A stretch of DNA of 64,000 nucleotides from Lentisphaerae bacterium WC36 (lineage in GTDB: Bacteria; Verrucomicrobiota; Lentisphaeria; Victivallales; SZUA-371). A model generated the notes under the pieces. The model had not been told where the DNA came from, did not search any database, and was given only the letters and a program-made list of their open reading frames with translations. How positions within the stretch are numbered: position 1 is the stretch's first letter; each line of letters begins with the position of its first letter. Where the stretch lies: the NCBI GenBank assembly GCA_020683205.1, contig CP085689.1, positions 744,001-808,000 of the forward strand, given 5' to 3'. The position numbers were made by a program, and so were the translations under genes. Shown here in pieces: positions 5,093 to 44,144 of this stretch.

Positions 5093-6712
5093 ATGGCAAA
5101 TAAATTTAAAGCGTTACGTATAGCGTTGTCATTTGTGGTAATGGTCTTAATTATTGGCGCATTTGGTTTTTATAACGTATTTTTGAAAAATAGTAGTGAT
5201 GAAACGCTAAATTCATTACACAAATTATTTTTATCAATCACCAGAATGCAATTTACGGTGACATTAGCAAGTTTGCATTCGGGGATGATTTATGGTTTGT
5301 TTGGAACATTGTTAATTTTGGTTTTGACATTGTTATTTGGGCGAGTTTATTGTGCAGTGATGTGTCCAATGGGGATTTTTCAAGATTTTGTTGCGTTTGT
5401 TCGAACTAAAGTTTTACGTCGTAAAAAAACAGTTGAGGCGGTACAGAGCTCAAAGTTGAAGTTTGTAAGGATTGTGCTGTTTATTTTATACAGTGCATTT
5501 TTGGTGACTGGATTAACTGTTTCAGTGTCGTTGTTAGATCCATACGCAATATTTGGTCGTTTTCTGAATGTTTTAAACCCTAATTATTATAATTATTATG
5601 CCACTGGTCAAGTCGAATATGATGCTAGTGGAGCAGGGGTCAATATCCAAAGTTTTGATACCAGTAAATTATATGCTATTACTGTGATTACAGTGGTAGT
5701 CATGTTATTGATTACTATTGCAAGCTTAATTAGCCGTCGCTTTTTTTGCCATAATATTTGTCCTGTCGGGACAATTTTAGGATTTTTTGCAAAAAAGCCA
5801 ATTTTTGGTTTATATATTGATAGCGAAAAATGTCGTCAATGTGGCAAGTGTACAATTAATTGTGCAGGGGACAATTGTTTGGATATTGAACATAAAAAAT
5901 TAGATAATAGCACGTGTGTGATGTGTATGAATTGCCTTGATTTATGTTCATTTAATGCAATTAAAATCAATAGTTTTAAACAACAAACAAAAGAAAATCA
6001 ACGAGTTACTGATATTGGTGAAAAATATCATGATTTGAGCCGTCGACAGTTTTTATCAGCATTAAGCTGTGGAATTGTTGCTGGAACAACTTCGTCGTTA
6101 TTGGCAAAAAATAATGATAAAAAACGAGTTGAGCAGTTGGTTGAAAAGGATATTATGCCAGTGATGCCGCCTGGTTCAATGAATTTAGAAGAGTTTAAGA
6201 GTAAATGTATTGGTTGTCACAAATGTGTGCGCGCGTGCCCAAGTAATGTGTTACAAGTTTCAACATTTAATTATGGCGGTTTTAGCAATATGTTTTTGCC
6301 GTACCTTGATTTTGATGCTGGGATGTGCAATGACTTTTGCTTTGAATGTATTAAGGCATGTCCGACTGGCGCGTTGAAAATTTTGCGAGAAGAGCAGCGT
6401 AAATTGTGGAAAATTGGTAAAGTTGAGTATATGCAAAATATTTGTGTAGTTGAAACCAACCGTGAAGCGTGTGGAGCATGTGGCGAACATTGTCCAACAG
6501 GGGCGATTCAGATGGAGGATTTTGGTGATGGTTTGACAATTCCAGTTGTTGACGATACGTATTGCATTGGCTGCGGTAGTTGTCAAAATATTTGTCCAGT
6601 GTTGCCTATGAAAGCGATTTTGGTAACTGGAGTAGCTGAACAAAAATTAATTAAAGCTAAACCAGAAAGTGAAATTGAAAAAGTTGTTCATGAGGAAGAG
6701 TTTCCTTTTTAA
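5093..6712 (+). CDS. Membrane polyferredoxin, NapH-like domain joined to a NapG/NapF-like 4Fe-4S domain
   Basis: A 539-residue protein in two parts. The first roughly 250 residues have membrane helices and the paired cytoplasmic motifs CAVMCPMG and CHNICPVG of NapH/CcoG-type proteins, followed by ferredoxin motifs CRQCGKCTINC and CVMCMNCLDLC. Then an internal SRRQFLSAL at about 315-323 followed by a hydrophobic stretch looks like a second, internal Tat-type segment. It leads into a domain with CIGCHKCVRACP, CNDFCFECIKACP, CGACGEHCP and CIGCGSCQNICP. The protein could therefore carry electrons across the membrane through about six [4Fe-4S] clusters. It is cotranscribed with the Tat-exported DUF362 protein. 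Donor and acceptor are unknown. Confidence 0.85.
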   Translation: MANKFKALRIALSFVVMVLIIGAFGFYNVFLKNSSDETLNSLHKLFLSITRMQFTVTLASLHSGMIYGLFGTLLILVLTLLFGRVYCAVMCPMGIFQDFVAFVRTKVLRRKKTVEAVQSSKLKFVRIVLFILYSAFLVTGLTVSVSLLDPYAIFGRFLNVLNPNYYNYYATGQVEYDASGAGVNIQSFDTSKLYAITVITVVVMLLITIASLISRRFFCHNICPVGTILGFFAKKPIFGLYIDSEKCRQCGKCTINCAGDNCLDIEHKKLDNSTCVMCMNCLDLCSFNAIKINSFKQQTKENQRVTDIGEKYHDLSRRQFLSALSCGIVAGTTSSLLAKNNDKKRVEQLVEKDIMPVMPPGSMNLEEFKSKCIGCHKCVRACPSNVLQVSTFNYGGFSNMFLPYLDFDAGMCNDFCFECIKACPTGALKILREEQRKLWKIGKVEYMQNICVVETNREACGACGEHCPTGAIQMEDFGDGLTIPVVDDTYCIGCGSCQNICPVLPMKAILVTGVAEQKLIKAKPESEIEKVVHEEEFPF

Positions 6713-33296: not shown

Positions 33297-33378
33297 TATA
33301 CAATGTACGTACTAGTGTTCTGGTATGTTATTTGTAGAGAAATAGTTTTTTTAAAATGAAGTGCAAAGGAAATTAGTT

Positions 33379-34014
33379 GTGAAAACAAAGGAAATTAATG
33401 CTGAGCATGGAAATGATAAGTGCATGACGCGTATAACTTTAATTGAACGTGTGCGCGATAAAAATGATGAAGAATCTTGGCAAGAATTTGTCGAGTATTA
33501 TAAAAATTTTATATTTATTCTTCTCAAACATTTTAGTGTCGGCGATAATGATATTGATGATTTAATGCAGATAGTTCAATTGAAATTATGGAATGGTATC
33601 AGCAATTATCAACAACATAAAAATAATGCTAAGTTTCGGACATGGTTAGGAACTGTGGTTCGAAATGTAGTGTTTACATACAATAAATCCCAATCTAAGC
33701 ACTATAATCAACGTGTCGGAGACGATCTTAATGATCTTGAATTTTTATTAGAACACAAAAATGAAGATCAGTTTGAGCAAATTATTGAACATGAGTGGAA
33801 AAATTATATAACTACTTTGGCGATGGAAAATATCAAGGAATTTTTTAGCGGCAAAGCTATTGATGTTTTTACTATGACTGTGAAAGGTCTCTCTGCTGAC
33901 GAAATAGCTCAGAAGTTGCAAATGAAAGTTGAAAGTGTCTATGTTTTGCGCAACAGAGTAAAAGAAAGATTATTTCAAGAAGTTAAGTATTTGCGTCGAG
34001 AACTTGAATTTTAA
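33379..34014 (+). CDS. ECF-type RNA polymerase sigma factor
   Basis: About 211 residues with region 2 (SWQEFVEYYKNFIFILLKHF, then DDLMQIVQLKLWN and the promoter-melting part KFRTWLGTVVRNV) and a C-terminal region 4 helix-turn-helix (KGLSADEIAQKLQMKVESVY). It resembles PVC-type ECF factors that open with TRITLIERVR. I take the GTG at 33379, with AAAGGA 8 nt upstream; a GTG at 33361 would be longer, and an ATG at 33424 would begin exactly at the conserved TRITLIERVR, so that shorter start remains possible. The gene is followed after 42 nt by a transmembrane Ser/Thr kinase, an arrangement seen in Planctomycetes and Lentisphaerae where the kinase controls the sigma factor. Confidence 0.85.
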   Translation: MKTKEINAEHGNDKCMTRITLIERVRDKNDEESWQEFVEYYKNFIFILLKHFSVGDNDIDDLMQIVQLKLWNGISNYQQHKNNAKFRTWLGTVVRNVVFTYNKSQSKHYNQRVGDDLNDLEFLLEHKNEDQFEQIIEHEWKNYITTLAMENIKEFFSGKAIDVFTMTVKGLSADEIAQKLQMKVESVYVLRNRVKERLFQEVKYLRRELEF

Positions 34015-34056
34015 AATCATTAAAAAATTCTTTTTGCATTTGAAGGTGAGTTGTTT

Positions 34057-36918
34057 ATGAACAATCTTAGTTCAAAATTTAAGAAACTTGATATGATAAA
34101 TGATGATTTTAGCTCATTTTATAATTTTGATCAAGATTTTAAAGATGCGATAACCCAAGAACTTGAGGTTATCAGTGAATTTTATTCACAAAAAGAGCTG
34201 ATTGCTGAAGGGGGAATGAAAAAAGTTCTTAAAGTTTTTGATAATCGTTGTCATCGTTTTATTGCCTTAGCTCAAAGTAAAGATGACTTAGGTAGTGATT
34301 ATCAAGGACAGCTACTTCGTGAAGCTCGTCTAACTGCTTCATTAAACCATCCAAATATAATTAAAGTTTTTGATATCTATCTTGATGAAAATGGTCGAGC
34401 CTATTTTACTATGGATTTAAAAGATGGTTTATCATTAGCTGAATTAATTGAATTTTGCTACCATAAGCAACAGCCAAAAGACAATAAAAGTGTAGATTTA
34501 GAATATTTTGCAAATTTTCCTCAAGATCGTTTTTTGGAAATTTTTTTAAAGATTTGTGATGCTGTCGCATATGCACATAGCCAAGGTATTGTACATTTAG
34601 ATTTAAAACCTAGTAATGTGCAGGTTGGATATCATGGTGAAGTTATGGTCTGTGACTGGGGGTTAGCAAAAGTTATTGACCCAAGCTTGGCTGGAGATGA
34701 TATTGAAAGCGTTGTTATTAATAGTAACGTTGAGCAGGTTGAAAAAATTACTAATTTAAATCGTAGTGATATTTTGAATAATTTTACATATTTTGGTGAA
34801 ATTAAGGGGACGCCAGGATATATGTCTTTTGAGCAGGCTAATCGAAATAAAACAGTTACTAGACAAAGTGATATATATGCTCTTGGGGCGATTTTGTATT
34901 CAATGATGACAGGGATTTTACCGCAAGTTAAAGATTTTAAAGCTATTATCAATGAAACCAAAGCTGGTAATATTGCTCTAGAAAAACTTTATGGAAAAAA
35001 AGGTAAGAAAATTCCTAAAAGCTTATACGCTGTTGTTAAAAAGGCGATGTCAACAAAAAGTGATAGTTATAGTTGCGTGAATGACCTTAAGGATGATATT
35101 GAAAAATATCGCACTGGTTTTGCTACTGGAGCTGAAAATGCTAACTTTTACCGTGAGGCTCGGCTTTTTTATACTAGAAATCGTCACCTTTGTTTAATTA
35201 TTTTAGCTGCTTTGATTTTGATTTTCTCTAGTTTGGTGTTCTTTTTACTTTTTTTAAACACTAGCCGATTGCAATTAATCCAACAAGAACAGCAGACAAA
35301 AAGTGCCTTAACTTTATATCAAAGAGAGAGTGCATGGTTTGATAATTTGTATGAAGTTAATTTAGACAGTTTAACACGTCTTTGCTATATTAACCCATCA
35401 GAGGGAGTGCTAATTGTTTTAAAAAGATTGGATAAAATGTTGTCTAAAAATTCAGATGATAAAACATTATTAGGTGCAAAAGGAACCATTTTATTTATCA
35501 TGCAAGATTTTGATAATGCTGTAAAATTTTTAAAAAATAGTAACTATTATCAAGCTTCATTTACGCAATTAGCAGAAAAATACTCAAGAAAGCAAAAAAA
35601 TCAGCAAGAAAATCTTTTATCTGCTGATGATATGGTGAGTTTAATAAAAGAACTAAGCAAAGATCCTAATAACTTAGAAATTACCACGAAATTGGTAGTT
35701 TATTATGTTTCTATGGTTGATAATTTTGCCAAAACTGCGCCAGTTGTTAAACAGTTGTTACAAAATGTTAATAAAAACTGGAATGCTGACAATGGCTTTT
35801 ATTTTGATAGTAAAAATAATATTTTATATCTAAAAGGAAATGGTTTAGAAAAGCTTGGTATTGGTTCTGATCAGGTGTTTACAATCAGTTATTTAGCATA
35901 TTGTAATATCAGAAAATTGGTGATTGATTCAGCAGATTTTAATAAATTAGACCAATTAAAAGGTGCTAACTTTGATGTTTTAGATATTAGTAATTGTGCT
36001 GTAAACAGCGCAGGAGCTTTGTTTGCATATAAAAATATAACTAAAAAATTAATTATTAGAAAGCGTCAAATAAGTAAGACTGATATTAAGCGTTTAAAAT
36101 CTGACTTAGGCTATAACGTTTCAGTAAATACAAAAGCGACATTCAATAGTAATAATGTTTATGATATTGCATTATGGTTACAAGAGAGTTTGCTCAATAT
36201 TAATACGGAAATAAATAATATTGATGGTGAAGTGTATGTACAGCGCGTTAGAAAAGTTCTCCGGGTTGCTAGGTCACGAATTTATTTTATTCGTCAAGAT
36301 TTTGGTGGGGCATTGTTTTTTATTAGACGGCATAGTGTTAATGCCCCTAAGTTGAAAAAACTCAGTGAAAAATATAAGAATTTACCGACAAATACTAAAG
36401 GTGTTTTGAAAGGACAGTATTTTATAGAATTTATTAAAGATATTAAAAAAGAGAATTTTACCGACGATACATTTGAACGAGTAATTGCTTTTCATTTGTA
36501 CCGACTCAATAATTTTGGCAAATCAATGAATATTTTAAGAGAAATTTTAAAACTTAAAAATCCTGAGTGGGATAGTTCTAAATTTAAATATGATAATAGT
36601 AAAAATTCACTGGTTGTTAGTGGAGACAACTTAAATATTTTGGGTGTATCTAAGGATAAATGGAGTTATTTACAGTATTGTAATATTAATACTTTGGTCA
36701 TCGATGTGCCTAGTTTTGGCGACCTAAGACAGCTTGGTGGTGCAAATTTAGATGTTTTAGATATTAGTAAAACGAATGTAAGTAATGTTTCAGCATTTTT
36801 TGATAATTGTCAGATAACTAAAAAATTATTAGTACGTGAAGGGCAGTTACCAGATTTTATTATTACGCGTTTAACCAATATGTATAATATACAAGTACAA
36901 ATTATCAATCCTAATTGA
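34057..36918 (+). CDS. Transmembrane Ser/Thr protein kinase with duplicated C-terminal sensor region
   Basis: A 953-residue protein: cytoplasmic kinase (about 45-345), one membrane helix (about 376-400) and a large outer part. Catalytic elements seen are EGGMKKV (glycine loop, 51-57), H180-x-D182 in HLDLKPSN, D200 in CDWG (a DFG variant) and GTPGYMSFEQ. The canonical VAxK lysine aligns with Ala72 in IALAQSK, so ATP binding must use another lysine or be weak. The outer part has two copies of a roughly 190-residue unit; each contains LDVLDIS, ITKKL and a similar run before them, suggesting a leucine-rich-repeat-like fold. AGGTGAG gives the ATG at 34057 rather than the TTG at 34051. It pairs with the ECF factor just upstream. 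Confidence 0.85.
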   Translation: MNNLSSKFKKLDMINDDFSSFYNFDQDFKDAITQELEVISEFYSQKELIAEGGMKKVLKVFDNRCHRFIALAQSKDDLGSDYQGQLLREARLTASLNHPNIIKVFDIYLDENGRAYFTMDLKDGLSLAELIEFCYHKQQPKDNKSVDLEYFANFPQDRFLEIFLKICDAVAYAHSQGIVHLDLKPSNVQVGYHGEVMVCDWGLAKVIDPSLAGDDIESVVINSNVEQVEKITNLNRSDILNNFTYFGEIKGTPGYMSFEQANRNKTVTRQSDIYALGAILYSMMTGILPQVKDFKAIINETKAGNIALEKLYGKKGKKIPKSLYAVVKKAMSTKSDSYSCVNDLKDDIEKYRTGFATGAENANFYREARLFYTRNRHLCLIILAALILIFSSLVFFLLFLNTSRLQLIQQEQQTKSALTLYQRESAWFDNLYEVNLDSLTRLCYINPSEGVLIVLKRLDKMLSKNSDDKTLLGAKGTILFIMQDFDNAVKFLKNSNYYQASFTQLAEKYSRKQKNQQENLLSADDMVSLIKELSKDPNNLEITTKLVVYYVSMVDNFAKTAPVVKQLLQNVNKNWNADNGFYFDSKNNILYLKGNGLEKLGIGSDQVFTISYLAYCNIRKLVIDSADFNKLDQLKGANFDVLDISNCAVNSAGALFAYKNITKKLIIRKRQISKTDIKRLKSDLGYNVSVNTKATFNSNNVYDIALWLQESLLNINTEINNIDGEVYVQRVRKVLRVARSRIYFIRQDFGGALFFIRRHSVNAPKLKKLSEKYKNLPTNTKGVLKGQYFIEFIKDIKKENFTDDTFERVIAFHLYRLNNFGKSMNILREILKLKNPEWDSSKFKYDNSKNSLVVSGDNLNILGVSKDKWSYLQYCNINTLVIDVPSFGDLRQLGGANLDVLDISKTNVSNVSAFFDNCQITKKLLVREGQLPDFIITRLTNMYNIQVQIINPN

Positions 36919-36941
36919 TAACCTGCAGTGATTAGAAATTT

Positions 36942-37829
36942 TTAAAAGTTATTATTAGAAATACCACGTAATATATTACGATACTCTTTTGGTGAATATT
37001 TTAAGCGTTTTTTAAATTGACGGCAAAAATAATTGCTATCTTTAAAGCCGCATTTTAACGCAATTTCGCTTATGCTGAAATCTTTTTTATTTAATAATCC
37101 ACACGCTTTTTGTAGCCGTAATCTTAATAAATATTCAATTGGAGAGCAATTAACTATTTCTTGAAATGTGCGGTTTAAGCTACTTATCGACATGCCTGCA
37201 AAATTTGCTAATTCTTGACGCGTCCAAGGTTTTGAACAGTCGTTAGCTAAAGCTGAAAAAACGGTCGCCAAACGCATCATTTGATTATTTTTTGATTCAA
37301 TATTTAAGTTGCTATAAAAACGAACCAATAGTGCGATTACTTGCATAAAAAGAGCTGTAATCATCATTTGATAACCATCTTTTTTTTCTACTTGCTCTTG
37401 CTCCATACAATCAATTAAATTCATAACTTGAGCTAATTGTTCTGAATTTAAATTTAGAGAAGTGTTATTTTTTCCTTTATTGGGGAAATGGGGATGAAGT
37501 AAAAATAATGCTTGGAATGCTGGAAAACGCGTTAATTCTAATAATGAATTATCAATTAGTGACATATCAAAAATTAAGTTAATTAAATGTAAATTTGCCA
37601 CATTTCGATAGCCATGTGGAATGTTATCATTAATAACATAAACATCCCCTGTTTTAACAATGTTTGAATCATAATCTAAATAATGTTCACCACTGCCATT
37701 GTAAACGATAACTAGTTCACAAAATTCATGTGTATGCAATGGGTAAGGTATTTGTGGCTCTCGGCGCAAAACCTTTATCGGTATTTTTTTATCATGAATA
37801 AATTCAGCTGTTTTTAATAAATTTTCCAT
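36942..37829 (-). CDS. AraC-family transcription regulator with cupin domain
   Basis: A 295-residue regulator. The N-terminal cupin (PLHTHEFCELVIVYNGSGEHYL near 31-52) binds the effector and the C-terminal double helix-turn-helix spans about 195-290, with SISEIALKCGFKDSNYFCRQFKK as the second HTH. This layout is typical of regulators of sugar catabolism. GGAGAG stands 5 nt before the ATG at 37829, so the longer frame to 37877 is unlikely. It is divergent from the HzsA-RpiB gene and 24 nt from the end of the kinase gene. It probably controls the divergent gene and perhaps the rhamnosidase. Confidence 0.88.
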   Translation of the reverse strand: MENLLKTAEFIHDKKIPIKVLRREPQIPYPLHTHEFCELVIVYNGSGEHYLDYDSNIVKTGDVYVINDNIPHGYRNVANLHLINLIFDMSLIDNSLLELTRFPAFQALFLLHPHFPNKGKNNTSLNLNSEQLAQVMNLIDCMEQEQVEKKDGYQMMITALFMQVIALLVRFYSNLNIESKNNQMMRLATVFSALANDCSKPWTRQELANFAGMSISSLNRTFQEIVNCSPIEYLLRLRLQKACGLLNKKDFSISEIALKCGFKDSNYFCRQFKKRLKYSPKEYRNILRGISNNNF

Positions 37830-38043
37830 AACGACTCTCCATTTTTTTATAATAGATAAAACTAGCATATTTGACACGATAGTGCAAGTTTTTGAATCAA
37901 TAATTAAGGTTTAGTTTATATTTCATAGTTATATTTAATACTAGAAAAAATAATTATGCAATAATTTATTAACGAAGTCATTAAAAAAATTTATTAAGTT
38001 AAGAATAGACTTTGGAGTATTTAAAAAATGAGGAAAGTAAACA

Positions 38044-41000
38044 ATGATTAAGAAATTTCAAGGTAAAGCTGTAACGTTCTTGATGGCCAGTTGTGGGTTG
38101 TTTCTTTGTACTTCTCAACAATTGTCAGCTAAAAATCAGCTAACGCAGAAAGGCAGAGAAATTTTACAAAATGATTGGTTGTTTCAAGCAGGAAATAACG
38201 TGAGTAAAAAAACGTTATTAAAAGAGTATAACCAAACAAAAAGTATGATTGAGCGCTTGAGTACAAGTTATTCAAAGTTAGATTTTATCACACAAAAGGA
38301 GAAGTTAAAAAATTTAAAAGCAAAAATTGATAGTGCATTTATTAATGAAAAAGAATTATACTTTGAACTTAGAAAATTGAAACGTGAAGTCATGATGGCT
38401 AATCCTGCGATTAATTTTGATAAATTACTATTCATTGATCAGCCATATCCATTAAATAATAAGTATGGGGCTTGGGCTGGAGGTCCGCGTGAATGGGCAC
38501 ATGAAGCTCGTCATCGTAACGGCTTATCGGCTCTTTCTGGAGGTAAATTATTAGTTTTAAATGGTTTAAATCCAGATGGAAAAGTTACTAATTTAATTCC
38601 AAATGAATACGGTGCTTTATATCGTCCCGACATTTCATATGATGGAAAGAAAATTATTTTTTGTTTTAAGCCTGAAAATGATAAAGCGTATCACATTTAT
38701 GAAGTTAATGCTGATGGTACAAATTTAAAACAATTAACATTTGGTGATTATGATGATTTAGATCCGATTTACCTTCCAGATGGGAAATTAATGTTTTCAA
38801 CAACTCGTGCAAATTCATATATTCGTTGCATGCCGCAAACAGCATCATTTCAGTTAGCACGGTGTGACTCTGATGGTAAAAATATTTATGTTATTAGTCG
38901 TAATAATGAATGTGATTTTACTCCTGCAGTAATGAATGATGGTCGTATTTTATATACTCGCTGGGAGTACACAGACAAAGCTTTATGGCGTGTGCAAAGC
39001 TTGTGGGCAACTAACCCTGATGGTACAAATACGGTACACGTATGGGGAAATCAAAGTATTTGGCCCGATATGTTAACTGAAGCACGTCAAATTCCAAATT
39101 CGACACGTTTAATTTTTACCGCTAACGGTCATCACGGTTGGTTTGATGGCTCAATTGGTATTCTCGATCCAGAAAAGGGGATGAATTACCCTAAAGGTTT
39201 AACGCAAGTTACAACTGAGGTTGTTTGGCCAGAAACTGGCAAAGGACCACATGATGTTCCTGAGAAAGAAGAATATTTAAAAGCAGGAAAGCATTATGCC
39301 TACAAAACGCCATATCCGTTGAGTGAAGAGTTATTTTTGGTTTCGGCGCGTATTGGGGGGCATTTATATAATCAAAACCATGATCCAAAAACATATTTTA
39401 GTTTATACCTAATGGATACATATGGTAATAAAGAGTTAATTTACAAAGGCGAAAAAAATGTTTATCATGCAGTACCATTAATGGCACGTCAAAAGCCGCC
39501 GATAATCCCTGATCGTGTGGTATGGCCAAAAATTGATAATAATAAAAAAGATATTGATGTTGCTGATGGGATTTTATATAGTCAAAATATTTTTGAAAAT
39601 GCTGATGATATTCCAAGAGATAAAGCAAAATATTTACGTGTTATTGAAATGGATCCAAAAACATATACCTCATGGCGTAAGCAAGCACAACATGATGGTC
39701 CATCGGTTGGGATAACTCAAGCTGAAACGGTAAAAAGAATTCTTGGGACAGTGCCAATTGAAAAAGATGGCTCAGTTTATTTTAGGCTACCAGCGGGTAA
39801 GGCGGTATATTTTCAAGTTCTTGATAAAGATTATCAATGTATTAAGAATATGCGTTCATTCACTGGAGTTATGCCTGGAGAAATTCGCGGTTGTGTAGGA
39901 TGCCATGAAGGTCAAACAAATGCGCCAAGTGTTGCATTGACACAAGGCAAAAAGGGATTCGGTTTGGCGTTTAGAAAAGCGCCTGTCACATTGATTCCAC
40001 CACCATGGGGTGATATAGAAACAATTGGTTACGAACGTTTTGTTCAGCCGCTGTTAGATAAATATTGCATTAGTTGTCATGATGGCAGTGATAATAAAGC
40101 GTCAAAGAAAATTAATCTTAAATTTAGAGATTCAAATCGTCGAGTTCGTTATGATGTTAAGTTAAGCGATAAACCCTTATTTGCACAACCATATGTTGAT
40201 TTAGTTGGTGGTGGTGTAGGCTGGGGACGCGCGAAAAATAGAAAAAATATTGCTGGAGTTTTAGTTGTTGAAGGTTATGCAATTCAGGATCCAGAAAGCT
40301 TAAAAACATTACCAGCATATTCACATTTTTCTGCCGTTAGCCAATTAGTAAAGATTGCTTCAAGTGGCATGCATCATAAAGTTAAGATGAGTGATGATGA
40401 ATTAAGAAGGTTAAGAGCATGGGTTGACTGTAATGGTCCATATTTAGGTTTAGAAGAGATTCGTCAAATGAATGACCCATTATTGCCTGATGTTGAAAGA
40501 GTTGCAGTTCGCCCACGTGTGGGAACAGCACCAATAATTAATCGTTTTAATATTCGTCAAGATGGAGATTCATTTAAAGTTGCCGGTTGCGAAGCTTCAA
40601 CAATTTTTGATAAATTAAAAGTTAATAATTGGGCAAAAAATGCAAATATTGAAGTAATTTCAGCTACTTATGGCGCAAATAATAAAACTAAAGATGTGAC
40701 TAAGTATCTTAAGAATAGTTTCAAAAAACAACCATATGCACTTATTGGTAATTTTAATAAATTTTTTGGTGGGGATCCAGCTCCTCAAGTTATGAAAAAC
40801 TTAAAAATAATTTATCGAGTAAATGGTGTAGTTGGAGAGATTACCGTAAAAGAAAACGGCTTCATTATGTTAAAAAAATTAAAAAATAACAGTAAAAAAC
40901 AACAGGAAAAAATAATTATGAACCAACAAACAGTTATTATTTTAGGTGCAGATGATTGGGGTAAAGGTTTAAAAAATGCTGTTGAAAAGCATTTAAAAAA

Positions 41001-41412
41001 CTTAAACTATACAATTATTGACGCTAATGAATTGCATTCAGAAAATAGTAATTACTATGAAATCGCTGAAGTTGCTGTAAAAAAAATTCAAGATCAAAAA
41101 GCTAAATTTGGCATTCTATTTTGTGGTACAGGCATGGGAATGAGCGTGGTTGCTAATAAACACAATGGTATTGTGGCAGCTGTAGTAGAAAGCCCTTTTG
41201 GAGCAAGAATGGCACGTGCGGTCAACAATGCTAATGTTTTAGCGATGGGCGGAATGATATTATCTGAACATCAAGCAATTTTGGCAACTGATAATTTTTT
41301 AAATACTAATTTAGCTGATGGTCTTGAACAATTCAAAGATTTCCTAAGTGATGCAATTGAGAAAGTTGACAAAATTGATGATGAAAATAGAAAATTAATA
41401 TATAAAAAATAA
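38044..41412 (+). CDS. Exported HzsA-like di-heme protein joined in frame to a RpiB/LacA-type isomerase
   Basis: One reading frame of 1122 codons. Residues 1-30 are a signal peptide. Residues about 130-480 form a TolB/WD40-like propeller (SYDGKKIIF, NADGTNLKQLTFGDYDD, LPDGKLMFST). A hydrazine-synthase-alpha-like region holds two heme c motifs, CVGCH (617-621) and CISCH (675-679), then a C-terminal module with ATYGANNKTKDVTKYLK. From Met959 (40918) on there is a complete RpiB-type domain: VIILGADDWG, GILFCGTGMGMSVVANK and NANVLAMGG. The RpiB cysteine is kept, but the His residues of E. coli RpiB (H9, H99) appear as Asp and Val. AGGA at 40904-40907 could start a separate cytosolic RpiB at 40918. 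Usually these are separate proteins in separate compartments. Either a stop codon was lost, or two products are made. Confidence 0.85.
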   Translation: MIKKFQGKAVTFLMASCGLFLCTSQQLSAKNQLTQKGREILQNDWLFQAGNNVSKKTLLKEYNQTKSMIERLSTSYSKLDFITQKEKLKNLKAKIDSAFINEKELYFELRKLKREVMMANPAINFDKLLFIDQPYPLNNKYGAWAGGPREWAHEARHRNGLSALSGGKLLVLNGLNPDGKVTNLIPNEYGALYRPDISYDGKKIIFCFKPENDKAYHIYEVNADGTNLKQLTFGDYDDLDPIYLPDGKLMFSTTRANSYIRCMPQTASFQLARCDSDGKNIYVISRNNECDFTPAVMNDGRILYTRWEYTDKALWRVQSLWATNPDGTNTVHVWGNQSIWPDMLTEARQIPNSTRLIFTANGHHGWFDGSIGILDPEKGMNYPKGLTQVTTEVVWPETGKGPHDVPEKEEYLKAGKHYAYKTPYPLSEELFLVSARIGGHLYNQNHDPKTYFSLYLMDTYGNKELIYKGEKNVYHAVPLMARQKPPIIPDRVVWPKIDNNKKDIDVADGILYSQNIFENADDIPRDKAKYLRVIEMDPKTYTSWRKQAQHDGPSVGITQAETVKRILGTVPIEKDGSVYFRLPAGKAVYFQVLDKDYQCIKNMRSFTGVMPGEIRGCVGCHEGQTNAPSVALTQGKKGFGLAFRKAPVTLIPPPWGDIETIGYERFVQPLLDKYCISCHDGSDNKASKKINLKFRDSNRRVRYDVKLSDKPLFAQPYVDLVGGGVGWGRAKNRKNIAGVLVVEGYAIQDPESLKTLPAYSHFSAVSQLVKIASSGMHHKVKMSDDELRRLRAWVDCNGPYLGLEEIRQMNDPLLPDVERVAVRPRVGTAPIINRFNIRQDGDSFKVAGCEASTIFDKLKVNNWAKNANIEVISATYGANNKTKDVTKYLKNSFKKQPYALIGNFNKFFGGDPAPQVMKNLKIIYRVNGVVGEITVKENGFIMLKKLKNNSKKQQEKIIMNQQTVIILGADDWGKGLKNAVEKHLKNLNYTIIDANELHSENSNYYEIAEVAVKKIQDQKAKFGILFCGTGMGMSVVANKHNGIVAAVVESPFGARMARAVNNANVLAMGGMILSEHQAILATDNFLNTNLADGLEQFKDFLSDAIEKVDKIDDENRKLIYKK

Positions 41413-41527
41413 TAACATCCTTAACCAATTAAATAATTAAAGATGTTGAGTTAACTTATTTCTTAATGTTTTTAATTATTTGCTTTTAGGGTTTTTCTAA
41501 AAATAATATTTAGAAGAGCTCTATATG

Positions 41528-41580
41528 AAATTCTAAACTATGCACATTAACTTTCTCTTACTGTGTGTAGTTTAGAATTT
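41528..41580. terminator. 19-bp hairpin after the HzsA-RpiB gene
   Basis: Arms at 41528-41546 and 41562-41580 pair over 19 bp with two wobble pairs around a 15-nt loop. TTTCTTCTT follows. It is probably the terminator of the HzsA-RpiB transcript, 115 nt after the stop codon, though the stem is much longer than needed. Confidence 0.6.
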
Positions 41581-41611
41581 CTTCTTGATTATGTAGGGAA
41601 ATATAATCTAA

Positions 41612-41650
41612 AATATTTTAATAAAAAAATATTTTAATAAAAAAATATTA
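41612..41650. repeat. Tandem 16-bp AT-rich repeat
   Basis: AATATTTTAATAAAAA occurs twice in a row (41612-41627, 41628-41643) and begins a third time (AATATTA). It lies about 110 bp before the rhamnosidase start and could bend DNA at the promoter. Confidence 0.7.
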
Positions 41651-41762
41651 AAGAATGTATATTATTAGTAAATATAATAAATTATAATTAACTTTGAGAA
41701 TATTTTATATAGATGAGTTTTTAGTAATATTCTTGAGGTCAAGTAAAAAAAGGGTTAAACTT

Positions 41763-44144
41763 ATGAAATTAAAAGAAACATTAAAAAATTTAAGTTATTC
41801 AATTATTAGCTTAATTGCATTTGATTGTGGTGCTTCGTCTGCGGTCAAAGTTCAACTTGTAGAAGATAAAACAACAATGAGTTATTCGCTAGCAGGTGAT
41901 TTTGACTATAATTGGGGAAGTGCCAAATGGATTGGCGTTGCAGACTCTAAACAGCTTATTAAGCCAAATACTTGGTATAATTATCGTTATGATTTTATGC
42001 TTAATAATATTGCTAAAAGTGCAGTTGCTCGCATTTCGTGCGATAGTAAATATTGGTTATGGATAAATGAAAAATTAGTTGTGGTTGAAGGAACTCTTCG
42101 TCGAGGTCCAACCCCAAAAGATACGTATTATGATGTGGTTGATTTGGAGCGTTATTTGAGTAAGGGTAAAAATAAAATTGAAATACTGCAAAATTATTGG
42201 GGGCGTCATGGTTTTAGTCACAATTCGAGTGGTAAAGCAGGGCTTATTTTTAGCTTAGATCTTAATAATGGTGAAGCTTTTGTCAATTCAAATAAAGAGT
42301 GGCTTGGAGCTGTTGACTATCGCTATGGGAATTATAAAAATGATCATAAAAATTTCCGTTTGCCAGAGCGAAGTATTGATTACGACCCTACTAAAAGTTG
42401 CAAGATGGCACTTGTTCAGGAATTAGGGGCGGCAAATAGTGCTCCTTGGGGTAAGTTAGTAAAACGTCCAATTCCTTTATTGAAGGATTTTGGGTTAAAA
42501 AATTATGTACGTATTGAAACTGAAACAAAAGATAATAAAAAAATTATTAAAGCATATTTGCCTCATAATATGACAGTTAATCCATATTTTGAACTGCAAA
42601 ATAGTACTGATAAAGGTTCAGTAACCATTGGTACAGACAATAAATTTAATGCTATTGAATATAACTTTCACCTACAAACAGGTTTGAATAAATTTGAAGG
42701 ATTGAATTACATTAGTGGACATTATGTGGTTTATGAAATGCCAAAAAGTGTAGAAGTTAAAGCGTTGAAATTCCGTCAGGTTGGTTATGATAATAAGTTG
42801 GTTGGCTTTTTTAAGTGTGATGATTCGGTAATTAACTCGTTGTGGGACAAAGCTGAAAAAAGTTTATATATTAATATGCGCGACTCCTATACAGACTGCC
42901 CTGATCGTGAAAAGGCGCAATGGTGGGGTGATTTAGTTAATGAAATGACTGAATCATTTTATGTTTATGATTTTAAAAATACCCCACAGTTAGCTAAAAA
43001 AGGAATTTATGAATTAGCAAACTGGCAGCGTTTTGATAATGTTCTTTATAGTCCAATTCCCGCTGGATTACCTGAGCAAATTAAAAATAAAACTGGAGTG
43101 AAATGTAATCAAAATAATGGAGAGTGGTCACGTGAATTGCCTCATCAAATGCTAACAAGCATCGGCTATTATGGTTTTTACACCTATTATTTGTATAGCG
43201 GAGATAAAAAAACTATTAAAAATATTTATGACAATGTTAAACGTTATTTATCAATCTGGAAAATTGATACCCAAACAGGTTTAGTTGTTAAGCGCAAAGG
43301 AGGCTGGTATTGGGCTGATTGGGGTTCAAATAAAGATGATTACGTGCAATTAAATGCATTTTATTATGCGGCTTTAGATGGTGCGATTCGCATGGCCAAA
43401 GTTGTTGGTGCTAATGCTGATATTGCTAATTATCAAGCTCAACGTGCCAGTATTAAGAAAAATTTTGATAAATATTTTTGGAATGGTAGAGAATATCGCA
43501 GTAAAGATTATCAAGGTAAAACAGATGATCGTGCTAATGCAATTGCAGTTGATGTTGGTTTAGCTAAAAAAGAAAATTATGATAAAATTACCAAAGTTTT
43601 AACAACTCAATTTAATGCTAGCCCATACATGGAAAAATATGTACTTGAGGCATTGTTTAAAATGCATCGTTCCAAGGAGGCCATTGTGCGTATGAAAAAG
43701 CGCTGGATGCCTCAAATTAACAGCAAATTTACTACACTATCAGAATTTTGGGAAGTGGGAGCAAAGGGAGGAACTTATAATCACGGTTGGAGTGGCGGTG
43801 GATTGTTAATGATGTATCAATATATTGCAGGAATTCGTCCTTTAGAAGCTGGATTTGAAAAGTTTATTGTACAGCCTCAAATTGGCAATTTAAAGAAAAT
43901 TGAAGCAGGTTTTCAAACTAAATATGGCATGATTTATTTTGTATTAGATAAAGAAAATAAGCAGCTAAAGCTTGTAGTTCCAGCTAATACCAGTGCTGAA
44001 TTAGATTTAAGCTTAATAGGCTTTGATAATAGTTCAAAAGTGACAGCCGTATTGCACGAGAAGAAAAAAACAAAAAATATTAATTTTCTAGTTAAAGAAA
44101 AACAAGTTTTAACATCTGGATCATGGATTATAGCTGTGAAATAA
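41763..44144 (+). CDS. Exported alpha-L-rhamnosidase-like enzyme (GH78)
   Basis: About 794 residues. The N-terminus MKLKETLKNLSYSIISLIAFDCGASSA is a signal peptide. A carbohydrate-binding beta region (GSAKWIGVAD near 38-47 and a jelly-roll part with WLWINEKLVV) is followed by the (alpha/alpha)6 barrel. The GH78-type motif DCPDREKAQWWGD is at about 378-390; a downstream WSHP-like segment appears as NHGWSGG. A small beta domain ends the protein. I chose the ATG at 41763, preceded by AGGG 8-9 nt upstream; the frame continues to 41694 without another good start. Its place after the AraC gene and the HzsA-RpiB gene suggests use of rhamnose-containing glycans. Confidence 0.82.
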   Translation: MKLKETLKNLSYSIISLIAFDCGASSAVKVQLVEDKTTMSYSLAGDFDYNWGSAKWIGVADSKQLIKPNTWYNYRYDFMLNNIAKSAVARISCDSKYWLWINEKLVVVEGTLRRGPTPKDTYYDVVDLERYLSKGKNKIEILQNYWGRHGFSHNSSGKAGLIFSLDLNNGEAFVNSNKEWLGAVDYRYGNYKNDHKNFRLPERSIDYDPTKSCKMALVQELGAANSAPWGKLVKRPIPLLKDFGLKNYVRIETETKDNKKIIKAYLPHNMTVNPYFELQNSTDKGSVTIGTDNKFNAIEYNFHLQTGLNKFEGLNYISGHYVVYEMPKSVEVKALKFRQVGYDNKLVGFFKCDDSVINSLWDKAEKSLYINMRDSYTDCPDREKAQWWGDLVNEMTESFYVYDFKNTPQLAKKGIYELANWQRFDNVLYSPIPAGLPEQIKNKTGVKCNQNNGEWSRELPHQMLTSIGYYGFYTYYLYSGDKKTIKNIYDNVKRYLSIWKIDTQTGLVVKRKGGWYWADWGSNKDDYVQLNAFYYAALDGAIRMAKVVGANADIANYQAQRASIKKNFDKYFWNGREYRSKDYQGKTDDRANAIAVDVGLAKKENYDKITKVLTTQFNASPYMEKYVLEALFKMHRSKEAIVRMKKRWMPQINSKFTTLSEFWEVGAKGGTYNHGWSGGGLLMMYQYIAGIRPLEAGFEKFIVQPQIGNLKKIEAGFQTKYGMIYFVLDKENKQLKLVVPANTSAELDLSLIGFDNSSKVTAVLHEKKKTKNINFLVKEKQVLTSGSWIIAVK

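Follow-up and report, generated by a model that had tools for sequence, protein, structure and literature searches.

How a putatively exported heme protein and an RpiB-type domain come to lie in a single reading frame is the question raised by positions 38044-41412 of the window, the whole stretch of 64,000 nucleotides from Lentisphaerae bacterium WC36 that was analysed here. Isomerases of the RpiB/LacA type are known for acting on sugar phosphates in the cytosol. At this locus, one ATG-started open reading frame on the plus strand extends over 1122 codons (1122 aa), internal stops being absent, and ORF analysis and Pfam both bore out the original prediction that it joins a signal peptide-like leader, an HzsA-like region with two CxxCH motifs and an RpiB/LacA domain. 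The lysine-rich linker, the AGGA motif and the in-frame ATG that had been described between the two parts were also located. The explanation favored here, which we consider rather probable, is an exported fusion of a di-heme and an isomerase-like part that is predicted to act extracytosolically, its substrate probably being an unphosphorylated carbohydrate, possibly with a minor second product. The features of the locus are as follows.

36942..37877, minus strand: divergent AraC-family regulator (AraC_binding and HTH_18; profile search)
38044..41412, plus strand: HzsA-like di-heme protein and RpiB-like domain in one frame (ORF, Pfam, and the same fusion in the planctomycete contig L204)
38044..38133, plus strand: signal-peptide-like N-terminal leader, MIKKFQGKAVTFLMASCGLFLCTSQQLSA-K (read off the sequence by eye; the L204 fusion is leader-bearing too)
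38044..40887, plus strand: HzsA-like part (Pfam, structure model, fold matches), comprising in order a helical N-terminal region, a beta-propeller-like region, HZS_alpha (aa 528-622) and a C-terminal beta domain (aa ~869-943)
40873..40917, plus strand: lysine-rich linker KKLKNNSKKQQEKII, residues 944-958 (low-confidence/flexible in the model)
40904..40907, plus strand: AGGA, Shine-Dalgarno-like, 10 nt 5' of the internal ATG
40918..41412, plus strand: RpiB/LacA-type domain of 164 aa, possibly a separate product from ATG 40918 (Pfam, fold)
41694..44144, plus strand: downstream alpha-L-rhamnosidase-like protein (Bac_rhamnosid6H; profile search)

Three Pfam domains were matched in the fusion protein: a PD40 repeat at aa 228-256, HZS_alpha (PF18582, E 9e-27) and LacAB_rpiB at aa 965-1093 (E 4e-34). 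The two CxxCH motifs are located at aa 617 and aa 675, and with HZS_alpha, a propeller and both motifs present, the front part belongs to the HzsA-like proteins. It matched HZS alpha (5c2v) in Foldseek with a TM of 0.42 (target-normalised), and it scored 48.9 bits against the hydrazine synthase alpha equivalog NF052339, far under the cut-off of 800. The C-terminal part matched RpiB structures with a TM of ~0.9 (target-normalised). In the whole-protein structure model, the RpiB domain reached a pLDDT of ~90, residues 948-958 of the linker were of low confidence, and the beta domain preceding them was confident. An Rfam scan of 36900-42000 gave no match. Directly upstream of the AraC gene, a sigma-70-type factor gene and then a Ser/Thr protein kinase gene occupy 33361-36918.

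The same architecture is present in L204 (JAEIOG010000094.1; Phycisphaerae, Planctomycetota), a contig whose title states a coverage of 1200 and in which both parts lie in one 1122-aa frame. A protein search of that genome aligned the two fusions at 57% identity in a single, stop-free match across aa 29-1117. The L204 gene also adjoins an AraC-type HTH gene (L204:1812-2690); beside the other HzsA-like loci examined, none was found by the same search, which had short flanks and modest sensitivity. The two RpiB domains are sisters in the RpiB tree (SH-aLRT 96), and the HzsA tree has the topology (L204,(window, L002)) (SH-aLRT 98), where L002 is a paralog in the WC36 genome that is 73% identical through residue 948 and then meets a stop, without an RpiB part. 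Given this topology, a single fusion event together with loss in L002 is sufficient. Most full-length standalone HzsA-like orthologs terminate 0-3 residues from the fusion point, and a few align only to ~925-938 and carry 8-22 extra residues. Two fusions were found in all, with no further one among the matches listed from the order, from 388 phylum genomes and from 298 genomes in the class to which L204 belongs. A GTDB contig scan using the whole protein, with patterns that were too specific, returned no relative, and neither did a scan of viral contigs. The original prediction had considered a lost stop codon and had named a stop in related strains as evidence against a fused protein. A stop does exist in L002 and other orthologs, but this is outweighed by the in-frame fusion in a member of the Planctomycetota, which argues against a recent loss.

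The internal in-frame ATG at 40918, residue 959 of the fusion, bears on how many products the frame yields. In L204, AGGA at 5972-5975 precedes an ATG at 5986 with the same spacing as in the window (10 nt), and the Met-Asn of the two proteins is aligned. In the WC36 genome, AGGA, GGAG or GAGG stands at start-like spacing before 42% of likely starts versus 3.5% of internal ATGs, and the same motif class in A-rich context gives 44% versus 1.9%. Moreover, leaderless standalone relatives of the RpiB-like domain start where the internal ATG lies. These sequence features make a second product from this ATG plausible, and we tentatively entertain the possibility that one frame gives two products, the long protein being exported and a cytosolic 18-kDa RpiB-like protein being translated from the Shine-Dalgarno motif and ATG 40918. 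On the other side, AGGA can arise by chance in lysine-rich linkers, the cases are two only, and the motif and ATG are perhaps the remnant of a formerly separate gene. Such dual translation is compatible with the favored explanation, an exported di-heme/isomerase-like fusion, and extends it.

The nearest relatives of the RpiB-like domain are standalone proteins, among them one in genome G002 that is 50% identical and starts at the same Met. A GTDB contig scan for this domain gave 268 relatives, 80 of which were kept; they span Planctomycetota, Verrucomicrobiota, Lentisphaerota, Kiritimatiellota, Hydrogenedentota, Bacillota and Thermotogota. According to sequence-pattern calls, not a dedicated predictor, 37 of them have Tat-type leaders, 4 have Sec-type leaders, 38 have none and 1 is a fusion. 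Tat-type leaders were read at the N-termini of L194, L195 and L196 and Sec-type leaders at those of L198 and L199, and some relatives scored as leaderless may have misread starts, such as L275, which lies inside the Sec clade. Leader patterns are thus present in 41/80 relatives; the window domain has a leader only via the fused N-terminus. Because many standalone relatives have their own leaders, predicted export is common in this subfamily. The originally predicted exported HzsA-like part and RpiB-like part were supported, and an exported RpiB part that would be inactive for that reason was not.

The closest standalone relative of the fused RpiB domain, L214, and L203 and L207 of the same family are all leaderless and have as neighbour a glycyl radical enzyme gene, whose product is of a type that works in the cytosol; this arrangement of leaderless RpiB-like genes occurs in three loci. 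The glycyl radical enzymes at L203:8197-10359 (minus strand) and L197:8383-10527 (minus strand) are below every NCBIfam cut-off, and the L214 locus has one too. Around the leader-bearing RpiB-like genes, no neighbour was conserved beyond close relatives.

For the comparison of active-site residues, we used as yardstick and for numbering what we take to be the E. coli RpiB sequence, which was cross-checked at His10, His99 and Arg110 against PDB alignments and, for the phosphate-site pattern, against L024, another RpiB-type gene of the WC36 genome. The four phosphate-anchoring residues (His10, Arg110, Arg133 and Arg137) and the two catalytic histidines (His99 and His134) are replaced in 82 of the 82 tree members, the window included. 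The replacement of the RpiB histidines had been noted in the original prediction and holds throughout the tree, with the correction that the first E. coli His is residue 10 in the sequence used, not 9. Cys66, Asp9, Asn100 and the Gly-rich loop are invariant in 82/82, position 68 being Thr or Ser, and Glu91 (window domain numbering) is a new invariant residue across the 82 members. The subfamily signature in the same numbering is Asp12, Cys69-Gly-Thr/Ser-Gly-x-Gly, Glu91, Asn103, Asn106 and Phe142-Leu143, to which the window conforms; the residue after Asp12 is Asp in the window and Pro in most members. Within an RpiB fold, the domain retains the catalytic Cys, the Asp, the Tyr/Phe, the Asn and the Gly-rich loop. 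In Leishmania RpiB, the equivalents His11, Arg137 and Arg141 (and Arg113) bind phosphate, with Cys69 acting as base and His102 opening the ring (PMC4783025). Judged by its residues, the RpiB-like half differs from an ordinary RpiB, and the earlier suggestion of a different substrate is supported by active-site replacements that are invariant across the subfamily. With both His lost, the domain might alternatively bind its ligand without catalysis. A former enzyme that now acts as a carbohydrate-binding or oligomerisation module for the heme protein would agree with the disappearance of both catalytic/ring-opening His and of every phosphate ligand, but the residues conserved in all 82 members (Cys66, Asp9, Asn100, the Gly loop and Thr/Ser at position 68) argue for retained chemistry, the new invariant Glu91 also stands against it, and we regard it as unlikely.

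A false join was suspected at first, since lengthening the A7 run (40872-40878) by one base would create a stop exactly at the stop position of L002. According to this explanation, an artefact or strain-level mutation, two neighbouring genes would have been joined by one base absent from the run; besides the matching end of L002, it is favored by what look like single-base shifts at A runs within L002 itself and a few other genes. However, the fusion is also in frame in L204, a separate assembly from a different phylum, and both halves group with their L204 counterparts in the trees. In addition, the homopolymer length spectrum of the WC36 genome, which is one 3.66 Mb contig, falls off like that of two relatives, and a survey of 224 kb of homology-covered DNA revealed only a handful of frameshift candidates. 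A base missing from the A7 run was rejected as the source of a false fusion in view of the homopolymer spectrum, the rarity of frameshifts and, as the deciding evidence, the in-frame L204 fusion; with an artefact thus very improbable, the window frame is taken as an authentic gene fusion. As for L002 (G000:C1:1011303-1014065, minus strand), its signal peptide and body lie in separate frames with the junction at an A7 run, and this break may reflect a pseudogene, an assembly slip or slippage. Other apparent one-base A-run shifts in the same genome are found in L084 at ~6505 (minus strand) and L071 at ~7191 (plus strand), one within a leader region and one in another HzsA-like gene.

That an ordinary ribose-5-phosphate isomerase B is joined to the heme protein is scarcely credible: the Pfam profile PF02502 (124 bits, cut-off 24.7), the fold and the TIGR00689 subfamily (106 bits, cut-off 88.3) are matched, but the RpiB equivalog TIGR01120 is missed (101.7 bits, cut-off 138.65), the phosphate ligands are absent, and the genome already encodes two more RpiB-type genes, L024 with phosphate-site residues present and the RpiB-serine hydroxymethyltransferase (SHMT) fusion L025.

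HzsA-like genes are found in ~20 places in the WC36 genome (G000), that of a non-anammox bacterium, and the literature searched contained nothing on the function of HzsA-like proteins in these phyla. In a sample of 50 genomes having an RpiB-like gene, HzsA-like genes (E<=1e-20) occurred in 31/31 genomes with a leader or fusion versus 12/19 leaderless ones (Fisher p 5e-4; relatedness inflates the association), and all 7 genomes that lack HzsA-like genes are also leaderless. The co-occurrence of leaders and HzsA-like genes was not significant in a tree-aware test, which had too few independent pairs. As background, an HzsA-like match at E<=1e-60 was present in 48 of 388 phylum genomes. Outside the fusion, no HzsA-like and RpiB-like genes were seen linked within 6 kb.

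The analysis establishes the single frame, its conservation as a fusion, the identity of each domain, the residue pattern, the pattern-called leaders and the co-occurrence; for the favored exported fusion, we infer the compartment, activity, substrate and electron coupling as follows. The Sec-type leader would export the di-heme, beta-propeller HzsA-like protein, with the RpiB-like domain hanging C-terminally on a flexible linker. This domain may carry out a Cys-based, isomerase-type proton transfer on an unphosphorylated carbohydrate, probably one that is extracytosolic and already open-chain or keto-type. The heme part would serve a neighbouring redox step, either by transferring electrons or through redox chemistry on a compound derived from sugar, so that the fusion would couple an isomerase-type step to a heme protein; a minor second product from ATG 40918 may be made as well. 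Several points count against this explanation: the fusions are two only, the nearest standalone relatives are leaderless and lie beside a glycyl radical enzyme, the co-occurrence is not significant given relatedness, and one added base in the A7 run would give an L002-like stop. A broader proposal, which we offer as doubtful, is that a widespread extracytoplasmic RpiB-fold family without the phosphate site and HzsA-like heme proteins together serve PVC bacteria in an isomerase-plus-redox breakdown of free or oxidised carbohydrates outside the cytosol, the fusion being the physical link and internal initiation adding a cytosolic isomerase. If the favored explanation is true, an extracytosolic isomerase step would be contributed by a conserved branch that bears leaders, lacks the phosphate site and occurs in Planctomycetota, Verrucomicrobiota/Lentisphaerota, Hydrogenedentota and further groups, and the fused partner would offer a direct handle on the role of the multiplied HzsA-like heme proteins.

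Both the putatively exported RpiB-like branch without the phosphate site and its di-heme fusion have known folds on each side; neither an exported RpiB nor this branch with its fusion was found in the literature searched, which is a part of all literature. The heme side resembles HzsA (PF18582, PDB 5c2v), the top PDB match by both sequence and fold, in its beta-propeller, HZS_alpha middle domain, CxxCH hemes and predicted export, but the identity in the fold alignment is ~17%, the window lineage is not anammox, and the window protein adds a C-terminal RpiB-like domain. The isomerase side shares with RpiB/LacA/LacB (PF02502) the fold, Cys base, Gly-rich loop, Asp and Asn, whereas the phosphate-anchoring His/Arg/Arg/Arg and both catalytic His are replaced in all 82 relatives, about half of 80 relatives are leader-bearing by pattern, and a heme protein is fused here. 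An RpiB domain is also joined to another enzyme in the RpiB-SHMT proteins of this phylum and in the RpiB-DeoC fusion of Marinimicrobia microcompartment loci (PMC4207490), but those partners are cytosolic enzymes, and the RpiB domain of the RpiB-SHMT fusion of this genome retains RpiB-like His and Arg. The latter, with RpiB in front and ~560-580 aa long, lies at L025:1477-3198 (G000:C1 ~1333083) and is apparently present in most genomes of the order (Pfam-confirmed here, read from the sequence in L185 and elsewhere presumed from open-frame length). DhuI, which is cytosolic and partnered by the reductase DhuD, is a weaker fold match (4u8f) with ~16% identity in the fold alignment and without a heme-protein fusion; as an RpiB-family enzyme acting on an unphosphorylated uronate (PMC12838403), it resembles the window domain in the non-phosphorylated substrate proposed here and provides a precedent for it.
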